The notes under the pieces: generated by a model
What the model saw: only the letters and a program-made list of their open reading frames with translations
Databases searched by the model: none
Told to the model about the DNA's origin: nothing
Source of the DNA: Candidatus Dormiibacterota bacterium
GTDB taxonomy: Bacteria; Chloroflexota; Dormibacteria; Aeolococcales; Bog-877
Assembly: GCA_027306885.1 (NCBI GenBank)
Contig: DAHUYV010000038.1
Location: 1-39,328 of the forward strand
Direction of reading: 5' to 3'
Length of the DNA stretch: 39,328 bases
Position numbers and translations under genes: made by a program
Part shown: positions 10,455 through 13,861 of the stretch, piece by piece
How the letters are laid out: the number at the start of each line of letters is the position of its first letter
Numbering within the stretch: the stretch's first letter is position 1

Positions 10455-11044
10455 CTCCGGCGGGACGCTCGAGAAGCCGGAGCCGGCGGTCGACGGCGGA
10501 TTCGGGCGTGGAGGGCCTGGTCCAGCTCCTCCGCCCGGCGCACCAGGAGGATCAGGTCCTGGTCGAGCACGGTCCTACGGCCCAGCTGCCGCCCGATCTC
10601 CAGAAGCTGGTCCCGCTCCATCTCGACCCGGACGACGCACACCGGGCTGGAGCCGTACCGGCGCAGGTTGCCAGTGAGCAGCGGGCGGCGGGCGGGAGTG
10701 TCGAAGAAGGACCTGAGGGGCTGAACCCGACTCTGGCGGAGGAAGGAGTAAGGCACCTCGGTGAGCCGGAACCAACGGCGGATCACGAGGCCCTCCGGCC
10801 CCAGTTCGACGTAGTGCCAGCGCTGGCGCAGGTTCATGACCACCAGGAGGGCGACGAAGAGGAACATCACCAGCAGGAAGCTGGGATCGATGCCGTGGTG
10901 GCCGAAGAAGGTTATCCCCTCCCCGACCAGCATGACCAGGATCCCGTAGGCCAGGACCCACCAGCTCCGGCGCCAGAATTCGTACGAGGCGAGCACCCCG
11001 AACCGGACTCCGGTGGCCGCCGGTGCGGCGGACCGCGCGGTCAT
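10451..11044 (-). CDS. membrane-anchored PH-like (bPH) domain protein, hypothetical
   Basis: Two N-terminal hydrophobic segments then HYVELGPEGLVIRRWFRLTEVPYSFLRQSRVQPL. ATG 11044 overlaps mtnP stop (ATGA). Confidence 0.55.
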   Translation of the reverse strand: MTARSAAPAATGVRFGVLASYEFWRRSWWVLAYGILVMLVGEGITFFGHHGIDPSFLLVMFLFVALLVVMNLRQRWHYVELGPEGLVIRRWFRLTEVPYSFLRQSRVQPLRSFFDTPARRPLLTGNLRRYGSSPVCVVRVEMERDQLLEIGRQLGRRTVLDQDLILLVRRAEELDQALHARIRRRPPAPASRASRRR

Positions 11045-11847
11045 GAGGCCGACCTCGGGAAGGGCGTACTGCTGGAGAGGCACGCGCACGACCGCAGCTC
11101 GGGCAGCCCGGCGACCACCTCCGACAGAAGGGCCTTGACCCGGTCGATGTTCGCCGCGAACACCCGCAGCACCTCCTGATGGCTGACCGGCTTCACCTCC
11201 GGCGACCCTTCCAAGCCCGCGTCGTAGTCGGTCACCAGAGCCAGAGAGGCGTAGCACATTCCCAGCTCCCGGGCCAGCACCACCTCTGGGTAACCGGTCA
11301 TGCCCACGACCCCCCAGCCCTGCCGGGAGTAGGAGGTGGACTCCGCGCTGGTGTTGAACCGCGGCCCTTGGATGACCACCAGGGTCTGACCGCGGTGCAT
11401 CGCGAGGCCAGCAGCCCGGCCCCGGGCCTCGGCGAGGTCGCCCAGCTCTGGGCAGTAGGGATGGGCCGCCGCCAGGTGCTCCACCTGCGGGCCGTCCCAG
11501 AAGGTGTCGGCGCGGCCCCAGGTGCGGTCCACGAACTGGTCAGGGATGACGATGCTGCCCGGCGCCAGCTCGGCGCGCAGTGACCCCACCGCCGCCGGGC
11601 CCAGGACCCGGCTCACCCCCACCTGGCTCATCGCCTGCAGATTGGCTCGGAAGTTGATCTTGTGCGGGGGGATCGTGTGGCCCCTCCCGTGCCGGGGCAT
11701 GAAGGCCACCGGGCGGCCCCCGATCTCCCCGAGGAAGATGGCGTCGCTGGGAGGCCCGAAGGGGGTATCGAGCCGCACCTCCTCCGCCCCCTCGAGCAGC
11801 TCGTAGAGGCCGGAGCCACCAAAGATGCCCACGGGTTCTTGGGCCAT
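11041..11847 (-). CDS. mtnP: S-methyl-5'-thioadenosine phosphorylase family
   Basis: GIFGGSGLYELL, FMPRHGRGHTIPPHKINFRANLQAM, IQGPRFNTSAESTSYSRQGWGVVGMTGYPEVVLARELGMCYASLALVTDYDAG. Confidence 0.92.
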   Translation of the reverse strand: MAQEPVGIFGGSGLYELLEGAEEVRLDTPFGPPSDAIFLGEIGGRPVAFMPRHGRGHTIPPHKINFRANLQAMSQVGVSRVLGPAAVGSLRAELAPGSIVIPDQFVDRTWGRADTFWDGPQVEHLAAAHPYCPELGDLAEARGRAAGLAMHRGQTLVVIQGPRFNTSAESTSYSRQGWGVVGMTGYPEVVLARELGMCYASLALVTDYDAGLEGSPEVKPVSHQEVLRVFAANIDRVKALLSEVVAGLPELRSCACLSSSTPFPRSAS

Positions 11848-11922: not shown

Positions 11923-12684
11923 TCAGAACGGGTGGCTGGGACAGCGGGGATCCCGCTCGAAGCGGATCTCGCGCCAGCGCAGCGCGGCGCCGTCCAGATC
12001 CCAGAGGCGGCCGGCGGCCCCGACCACGGTCCCGCTCAGCGCCTCAACAGCAAGCAGCGCCTGAAGGGCGCCGACGACCCCCACCACTGGGCCCAACACC
12101 CCGGCGGTCTGGCAGCTCACGGCGCTGGCGGGAGGGGTCTTGAACAGGCAGCGATAGCAGGGTGAGCCGGGCAGCACGATCACCACCTGGCCGCGCATGG
12201 CAATCGCTCCCCCGATCACCGCCGAGTTGCCTGACCCGACCGCCCAGTCGTTGAGGCCGAACTTGGACCGGGGGTCGTCGGTGCACTCCAGGACCAGGTC
12301 GACGCCGGCCAGCGCCGAGGGGAGGTCGGAGGGACCGAGCCGGCGGACCTCGAAGCCGACGTCGGTGAGGGGGTTGAGCTGGCGCAGCCTACGGGCGAGC
12401 GCCAGCGCCTTGGGGGTTCCGAGGTCCGCCTCCCCGAAGGCGACCTGCCGGTGCAGGTTGTGGACCTCCACCAGATCCGGGTCGAAGAGCCGGATCGCCC
12501 CGACGCCGGCACCGGCCAGGTAGGGCGCGGCGGCGACACCCAGTCCCCCGCAGCCGATGAGCGCCACAGTTGCGGCCCGGAGGCGGAGCTGCTCCCCCTC
12601 CCCCATCTCAGGGAGGAGGAGCTGGCGGCTGTAGCGCTCCACCTCGGCAGCGGTGAGGGTCGCCGGCTGGACCCGCTCGCTCAC
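11923..12684 (-). CDS. ThiF/MoeB/HesA-family E1-like adenylyltransferase, no rhodanese domain
   Basis: RYSRQLLLPEMGEGEQLRLRAATVALIGCGGLGVAAAPYLAGAGVGAIRLFDPDLVEVHNLHRQVAF; LECTDDPRSKFGLNDWAV; CYRCLFKTPP...SCQTAGVLGPVVGVVGALQA. Start GTG 12684 overlaps upstream stop (GTGA). Confidence 0.9.
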   Translation of the reverse strand: MSERVQPATLTAAEVERYSRQLLLPEMGEGEQLRLRAATVALIGCGGLGVAAAPYLAGAGVGAIRLFDPDLVEVHNLHRQVAFGEADLGTPKALALARRLRQLNPLTDVGFEVRRLGPSDLPSALAGVDLVLECTDDPRSKFGLNDWAVGSGNSAVIGGAIAMRGQVVIVLPGSPCYRCLFKTPPASAVSCQTAGVLGPVVGVVGALQALLAVEALSGTVVGAAGRLWDLDGAALRWREIRFERDPRCPSHPF

Positions 12685-12977
12685 CACGCCACCGCTGCGG
12701 CGGAGTGCGCGAGCAGGTCCACGGCCCCCAGGTAGTCGGTCCGCTCCCAGCTCTCGCCACCCCCGGGCGACCCGAGGTGTGGTCCCAGCGCCACCACGAC
12801 CGGCGCTGCCTCCGCCCCCAGCCCAGGCAGGAGGTCGGCGATGCTCGACGCCGTCTCCCGCACCGCCTCCCCGGTCAGCACCACCGTGGTGAGCCGTCCC
12901 TGCCGGCAGGAAGAGGCCACCGCGGACCATGCTCTCGCATCGTCGCGGCGGGAGATGATGTGCACGTCCCGGGCCAT
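12681..12977 (-). CDS. small DsrH/TusB-like protein (tentative)
   Basis: 98 aa ending YLGAVDLLAHSAAAVAW, resembling the Y..FV.L..KH...MAW C-terminus of TusB as I recall it; sits between DsrE-like genes and ThiF. Confidence 0.5.
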   Translation of the reverse strand: MARDVHIISRRDDARAWSAVASSCRQGRLTTVVLTGEAVRETASSIADLLPGLGAEAAPVVVALGPHLGSPGGGESWERTDYLGAVDLLAHSAAAVAW

Positions 12978-12978
12978 C

Positions 12979-13335
12979 TCAGAGAACCATCCGGTGGCGG
13001 GCGCGCAGGAAGGCCGACTCGATCTCCACGTCCGACCAGGCCTCGACCCCCTCTCGCAGGTCGGCCCGGCTCCACCCGAGGCGGGTGAGGGAGTCCAGTC
13101 GAACCGCGACCCGGGCGTCCTCGTCGGAGAGAAGCGCCGCCAGCTCGGCGGGCATTTGGGACGCGATCGAGCTGGCGGAGACGGAAGCGGCGAGCCCGAG
13201 GCCCGCGGCGGACCCCTCCAGGATCAGCAGGGGACGGCAGTCGCCCAAGGTGAGCGCCAGGGCCAAACGCACCGCCAGGGCGGCTCCAGGGCCGGTCCGC
13301 TCACCCCTCGCGAGCACCACCACCTCCGGGCCCAT
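12979..13335 (-). CDS. small DsrF/TusC- or DsrE-like protein (tentative)
   Basis: 118 aa from ATG 13335 (ATGA overlap): MGPEVVVLARGERTGPGAALAVRLALALTLGDCRPLLILEGSAAGLGLA. Confidence 0.5.
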   Translation of the reverse strand: MGPEVVVLARGERTGPGAALAVRLALALTLGDCRPLLILEGSAAGLGLAASVSASSIASQMPAELAALLSDEDARVAVRLDSLTRLGWSRADLREGVEAWSDVEIESAFLRARHRMVL

Positions 13336-13673
13336 CAGGAGAACACCAGCACCTTGTCCGCCTCCTGGCACCAGATCGCGAGGTCCCGCAGGCTTCCCCG
13401 GGTGACCCCGGGATCCATCGGGTCGCCGCCACGGCGCCAGCGCCAGTCGGCATCGCAGACGACGGTCTCAGCGCCGGATTGGGCGATCGCCGATGCGCTC
13501 AGCACTCCATCTCCCACCAGGAACGCGCGGGTCTGGTGGCCACGAACGAGGGCGGCGCCGGTCAACCCCGCCACCGTGGCCACCGCCGACCCGCCGGGGG
13601 CCGCGGCCAGCACGAAGACCAACCGCCGGGACTCCCGGTCCCGAGGGAGATCAGCGGCACTTGAGATCGACAC
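13335..13673 (-). CDS. DsrE/TusD-like sulfurtransferase-family protein
   Basis: 112 aa: AFLVGDGVLSASAIAQSGAETVVCDADWRWRRGG...GSLRDLAIWCQEADKVLVF; Cys73 context resembles the C..A..RRG site of TusD/DsrE and the end resembles CDRVVxF. Confidence 0.6.
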   Translation of the reverse strand: MSISSAADLPRDRESRRLVFVLAAAPGGSAVATVAGLTGAALVRGHQTRAFLVGDGVLSASAIAQSGAETVVCDADWRWRRGGDPMDPGVTRGSLRDLAIWCQEADKVLVFS

Positions 13674-13679
13674 ACGGCC

Positions 13680-13685
13680 AGCCTA
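13680..13685 (-). promoter_or_regulatory. putative -10 element TAGGCT for the DsrE-like cassette
   Basis: TAGGCT, 6 nt, then GTG 13673: leaderless geometry. Confidence 0.4.
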
Positions 13686-13761: not shown

Positions 13762-13844
13762 GCCGGGGTGGCGTAATGGCAGCCGCAGCGGTCTTAAAAA
13801 CTGCAGCCCGCAAGGGCGTGCGGGTTCGATTCCCGCCCCCGGCA
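13762..13844 (+). tRNA. tRNA-Leu (anticodon UAA)
   Basis: Acceptor GCCGGGG/CCCCGGC + A; D-stem GCG/CGC with GG in loop; anticodon arm GCGGT-CTTAAAA-ACTGC; class II variable arm GCCCGCAAGGGC; T arm GCGGG-TTCGATT-CCCGC; CCA not encoded. Confidence 0.95.
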
Positions 13845-13861
13845 CGGTACTGACCGAGCTG

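Follow-up and report, generated by a model that had tools for sequence, protein, structure and literature searches.

Where an E1 enzyme lacks a rhodanese domain, it is often unclear how ThiS and other ubiquitin-like carriers receive their sulfur. A compact operon in a Candidatus Dormiibacterota genome raises the question in concrete form: three small genes resembling those of DsrEFH/TusBCD complexes are coupled to the gene of a rhodanese-less E1, and the donor and the carrier that they would serve have to be sought across the genome. In E. coli, TusBCD relays sulfur from TusA to TusE/MnmA, and MoeB and ThiF adenylate sulfur-carrier proteins. ThiI and IscS form the usual route to ThiS (PMC4215014), and in E. 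coli the reaction of MoeB with MoaD draws on the persulfide of TusA (PMC5372717). Rhodanese-less E1s pair with a separate SirA/TusA persulfide protein, a proposed substitute for the rhodanese (Iyer et al., 2006, PMC1779556). No description of a pairing between DsrEFH/TusBCD and ThiF/MoeB proteins was found in the open-access literature searched, in which this type of E1-triad operon is apparently undescribed.

Organization of the cassette

The window, that is the whole stretch of 39,328 nucleotides analyzed, is contig C151 of a genome (G000) that is about 90% complete. The genomes compared with it are incomplete MAGs; the window's own family, f1, is represented by 18 genomes, and the class sample comprises 110. 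Four coupled genes occupy positions 13673 to 11923 of the minus strand in the order D-C-B-E1 (112, 118, 98, and 253 codons), followed by mtnP:

13335..13673, minus strand: D, DsrE/TusD-like subunit of 112 aa whose Cys73 is a candidate persulfide carrier (Pfam DsrE, profile matches, aligned Cys73)
12979..13335, minus strand: C, subunit in the DsrF/TusC position, 118 aa from ATG, predicted DsrE fold, without an invariant Cys (AlphaFold2, Foldseek, profile match to YchN)
12681..12977, minus strand: B, DsrH/TusB-like subunit of 98 aa with a C-terminal DY...VxxW motif (AlphaFold2, Foldseek, profile match to DsrH, hhalign)
11923..12684, minus strand: E1b, ThiF/MoeB-type adenylyltransferase, 253 aa from GTG, without a rhodanese domain (Pfam ThiF, PDB neighbor ThiF, invariant catalytic residues)
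11041..11847, minus strand: mtnP, S-methyl-5′-thioadenosine phosphorylase, a neighbor outside the proposed relay (NCBIfam PRK07823, over cut-off)

D and C overlap by 1 nt, C and B are separated by 1 nt, and B and E1b overlap by 4 nt; the three small ORFs and the E1 gene are thus arranged in one direction with gaps or overlaps of 1-4 nt, as the preliminary description had them. A longer E1 ORF beginning at ATG 12930 was rejected, as it overlaps B and the alignable part of the relatives' E1s starts near the GTG. The notion of a chance or misread set of ORFs was likewise discarded, order and coupling being repeated in 14 other genomes. A tRNA-Leu (taa) gene lies upstream of the cassette in divergent orientation (13762-13845, plus strand).

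The D, C, and B subunits

In single-sequence searches, D falls just below the Pfam DsrE cut-off (E = 5e-4, 20.7 bits vs. 22.7) and matches the TusD model TIGR03012 weakly (11.8 bits vs. a cut-off of 89.25), and C and B give no relevant family match. Because the triad lies below the curated family cut-offs, it is termed TusBCD-like here rather than filed as TusBCD. Profiles built from 15 genomes reach further. In the PDB, the D profile matches DsrE, YchN, and TusD, that of C matches YchN, and that of B finds DsrH first (E = 0.31) and TusB third (E = 0.7). Pairwise hhalign comparison matches the whole length of B to TusB and puts Cys73 of D opposite Cys78 of TusD; the one-to-one scores are modest, as E. 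coli contributes just one sequence to each comparison. Cys73 is the sole invariant Cys of D (15 of 15 genomes), and neither C nor B has one.

Structures were predicted for C and B, D being placed by profile search. The AlphaFold2 models have mean pLDDT values of 90.8 (C) and 89.8 (B); Foldseek matches the C model to YchN, DsrE, DsrF, and TusD, and the B model most closely to DsrH (probability 1.00, E = 0.005). The f2 homolog of C exceeds the Pfam DsrE cut-off (E = 2e-9). By sequence for all three proteins, and also by modeled structure for C and B, the subunits belong to the DsrE superfamily, three of whose members thus stand side by side as D(E)-C(F)-B(H). The earlier proposal of a DsrE/F/H (TusD/C/B)-like triad, with a TusD/DsrE-like Cys in the first ORF, agrees with order, fold, and active Cys, and the structure predictions, named beforehand as a check, return DsrE folds and leave it standing. 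D-C-B is a predicted DsrEFH/TusBCD-type complex, whose assembly we infer.

The E1 enzyme

The fourth gene had been called E1-like, of ThiF/MoeB type, and this assignment is borne out by the Pfam ThiF match (4e-62, 210 bits). In the PDB, the closest chain is that of E. coli ThiF (6e-47), with MoeB behind it (7e-43). R20, N76, R79, K92, D136, and Cys191 are invariant in all 15 genomes, and Cys191 aligns with the Cys184 region of ThiF; we take these residues to have adenylation roles and Cys191 to be the counterpart of the catalytic Cys of ThiF. Judged by alignment, E1b keeps its catalytic residues, and together with the ThiF domain, the CxxC motif, and the C-terminal zinc ligands they give it the features of the ThiF/MoeB E1 superfamily. 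In 14 of 15 genomes the fourth ligand of the predicted zinc site is His rather than Cys, and the CxxC is kept in the f2 E1b and in G049. E1b has no rhodanese domain; a second E1 of the same genome carries one at its N-terminus.

The NCBIfam models do not separate ThiF from MoeB for this protein, which scores below both cut-offs (TIGR02356 for ThiF, 197 vs. 275 bits; PRK05690 for MoeB, 203.5 vs. 266). Measured by these models, E1b is no closer to ThiF than to MoeB, which speaks against calling it a ThiF.

Conservation of the gene order

A search with the C subunit in the 110 class genomes gave 15 matches, all in f1 and all with the order D-C-B-E1. Conservation of this order in relatives had been named in advance as a test of the cassette, and it is kept in 15 of the 18 f1 genomes. 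The 14 genomes other than G000 have all four genes, at junctions ranging from an 11-nt overlap to an 11-nt gap and at 29-62% protein identity, and the E1 is translationally coupled in 15 of 15. As for the rest of f1, a window-type E1 lies at the end of a contig in G039, and both the triad and this kind of E1 are missing from G040 and G041. The cassette is therefore a real, conserved operon type built of known protein families.

Gene boundaries at the relatives' loci come from a simple gene caller, with family tests on part of the neighbors. In a second family, f2, the locus (G005, G008, and G010) reads Rrf2-E1a-D-C-B-LarE-E1b, with the triad between two E1s, and five f3 loci read Rrf2-E1a-E1b-mtnP, with no detectable triad. 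Two f4 loci (G098 and G086) have E1a-LarE without a triad, the latter continuing into mtnA-mtnP. The pairing of an E1 with a triad recurs elsewhere in the phylum together with TusA, LarE, or a carrier domain fused to the E1: G181, G135, and G216, from two families, have TusA and a triad in the neighborhood of an E1, and in the last two of these the E1 bears a MoaD/SAMP1-like N-terminal domain. In G188 and G346 the triad has no E1 nearby. The large clusters of G135 and G216 hold the MoaD/SAMP1-E1 fusion, TusA, and two triads beside nitrate-reductase-gamma-like, CCG Fe-S, and GcvH-like proteins, and that of G216 also has a cysteine synthase.

The neighboring mtnP had suggested a connection to methylthioadenosine. 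The adjacency is partly conserved, mtnP following the E1 in 10 of 15 f1 loci (once with an intervening gene) and in the five f3 loci. Three f1 cassettes, by contrast, and each of the three f2 triad loci lack a neighboring mtnP; of the remaining f1 genomes, one has its contig end there and another has no mtnP found on the contig. These absences make the adjacency look like retained gene order, and mtnP was rejected as a necessary partner. A role in methylthioadenosine/methionine salvage, with sulfur drawn from MTA, would suit the position of mtnP in most f1 and in the f3 loci, as well as the E1a-LarE-mtnA-mtnP order of one f4 locus, but mtnP also follows E1s that have no triad at all. This role is very improbable and the functional link weak, so that of the original suggestion only the partial adjacency stands.

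Sulfur carriers and donors

The preliminary description had found no TusA, TusE/DsrC, ThiS, or MoaD in the window and had supposed an unlinked carrier. Both points stand: none of the ThiS/MoaD, TusA, or DsrC matches of G000 lies on C151, and ThiS, MoaD, and SAMP1/CysO-like carriers are encoded elsewhere, as a ThiE-ThiS fusion, a MoaD-MoaE fusion, and a SAMP1/CysO-like protein (three ThiS/MoaD-family proteins). The ThiE-ThiS fusion lies upstream of ThiG on contig C146 (L148:5104-5982), with thiL-tsaE-tsaB-rimI-tsaD-like genes after thiG; in f3, ThiS appears to be fused to ThiG instead. No thiF stands beside thiS-thiG at the loci read. Outside the window, G000 also encodes TusA, ThiG, and ThiO (over cut-off), and ThiO is over cut-off in most E1b genomes tested. 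An extra, weakly scoring ThiS-family carrier of about 85 aa occurs in many triad genomes (e.g., G043:C47:2981-3235 and G005:C19:104101-104355).

TusA is matched in all 18 triad genomes (17 over cut-off). The DsrC family, which includes TusE, is matched in six of them, so that TusE was rejected as an obligatory partner. These numbers bear on the classical role of TusBCD, in which the triad would supply sulfur for tRNA 2-thiouridine via MnmA and the E1 would be a co-transcribed passenger. The tusDCB-like gene order, the presence of TusA, and an MnmA gene on contig C111 of G000 all fit such a role. However, TusE/DsrC, the usual step to MnmA, has no match in G000 or in 12 of the 18 triad genomes, the E1 is translationally coupled in all 15 genomes, and the f2 triad is flanked by an E1 on both sides; we consider this role improbable. 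On C111 (L146:9074-10642), the gene of the SAMP1/CysO-like carrier immediately precedes mnmA, an adjacency that, in a genome without a TusE match, might hint at carrier-based sulfur supply to MnmA.

A dissimilatory DsrEFH of a sulfur-oxidation pathway would account for a triad of the DsrE family and for the DsrC of some relatives. Against it stand the f1 and f2 genomes tested, none of which has a DsrA over cut-off, and the position of the cassette next to an E1 rather than dsr genes. The missing TusE/DsrC and the missing DsrA thus argue against the classical and the dissimilatory roles, respectively, and the latter, the least credible of all the readings, was rejected.

Co-distribution of E1b and ThiG

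The ThiG sequences of the class form two clades (100/100 support), and their distribution follows that of E1b. Among the 110 genomes, 35 have E1b with ThiG clade II, one has E1b without ThiG, 56 have ThiG clade I without E1b, and 18 have neither; there are no discordant cases. Clade II is thus found in 35 of 36 E1b genomes, and clade I together with E1b in none. For genomes not in the tree, the type of ThiG was assigned by bits per aligned position, which is less firm (gap of 1.31 vs. 1.39), as are E1b calls made from tandem position in some f3 genomes. In f1 as in f2, every genome that has E1b carries clade II, and where E1b is absent ThiG is of clade I or lacking; the two change together within each family though their loci are unlinked. 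Clade II is also present in the f3 genomes, together with a second E1 of their own. This E1 falls with E1b on one side of a branch (100/99) that sets off the other E1s; its assignment to the same lineage depends on the position of the root. The naive odds of the E1b/ThiG-II match are 0.0065 within f1 and 0.0015 within f2, values to be read knowing that the genomes are related and not independent, and that the correlation rests on only some three or four evolutionary changes.

Genomes without ThiG still have the rhodanese E1 and two other carriers, which by elimination leaves ThiS for E1b. On this comparison of gene contents, the unlinked carrier of E1b is most likely ThiS. The relay might instead serve another carrier (CysO/SAMP1-like, MoaD, or the ~85-aa ThiS-family protein), with cysteine, molybdopterin, or a thiolated nucleotide as the product. 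E1s of the ThiF/MoeB family can serve several carriers, the first two of these are present in G000, and the G135 and G216 clusters combine a MoaD/SAMP1-like-E1 fusion with TusA and a triad, beside cysteine synthase in G216. Yet the CysO-like and MoaD carriers persist with the rhodanese E1 alone in genomes that lack E1b, and several triad genomes, including G000, lack the ~85-aa carrier, whose distribution fits less well than that of ThiS and which was set aside as the partner. Service to a carrier other than ThiS is unlikely, though it is the strongest competitor.

A proposed relay to ThiS

With ThiS as the carrier, the following relay can be put forward. TusA, the likely upstream donor, would charge Cys73 of D, and the D-C-B complex would hold the persulfide there. 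E1b, as the ThiF of this lineage, would adenylate the C-terminal Gly of ThiS (the ThiE-ThiS fusion in G000), and the complex would then give its sulfur to convert ThiS-COAMP to ThiS-COSH, which would feed ThiG. The complex would thereby replace the rhodanese or ThiI step used elsewhere. We infer that the complex forms and that sulfur flows in this direction, and likewise the roles of ThiS (carrier) and TusA (donor). From comparative genomics, the chain from TusA through the DsrEFH-like complex and E1b-activated ThiS to ThiG has, in our estimate, an even chance of being correct. The broader statement, that a DsrEFH/TusBCD-type complex passes persulfide sulfur to an E1-activated ubiquitin-like carrier and is the source of the thiamine thiazole sulfur in the class, is a little more tentative.

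Several observations weigh against the relay to ThiS. The cassette is not linked to thiS or thiG, and the genome also has a rhodanese E1 that could act on ThiS, which in G040 it must do. Furthermore, f3, a sister family, combines ThiG clade II with a second E1 and no detectable triad, which indicates that the triad is not always needed.

Relation to known sulfur-transfer systems

Like E. coli TusBCD, the cassette has the D-C-B order at near-zero spacing (tusD-tusC-tusB shows a 1-nt overlap, then a 7-nt gap), DsrE folds, and Cys73 on the position of TusD Cys78; it differs in its identity of about 20%, below family cut-offs, in its coupling to an E1, and in that TusE is mostly missing. With the DsrEFH complexes of type I (Allochromatium) and type II (cable bacteria, PMC13293266) it shares three DsrE-fold subunits with one active Cys in DsrE. 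Type II, compared here by description only, is missed by standard HMMs and receives sulfur from TusA (PMC13293266). In contrast to the cassette, whose f1 and f2 genomes tested have no DsrA over cut-off, both types work with DsrC and DsrAB. The ThiF-ThiS-ThiG system (with ThiI/IscS) is approached through the E1, nearest to ThiF in the PDB, and through the ThiS, ThiG, and ThiO of G000, but the cassette E1 gene lies outside the thi locus and the proposed donor is a DsrE-type complex. The operons of rhodanese-less E1 and SirA/TusA likewise combine such an E1 with a separate persulfide protein; there, however, the partner is a single SirA protein, and DsrE and TusB are unmentioned (PMC1779556).

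An operon that ties a rhodanese-less E1 to a persulfide complex offers a concrete, testable donor, and the cassette helps to annotate small proteins that standard models miss. If the relay is correct, tRNA thiolation and sulfur oxidation would not be the only tasks of DsrEFH/TusBCD proteins, and two sulfur-trafficking systems so far known apart from each other would be joined.
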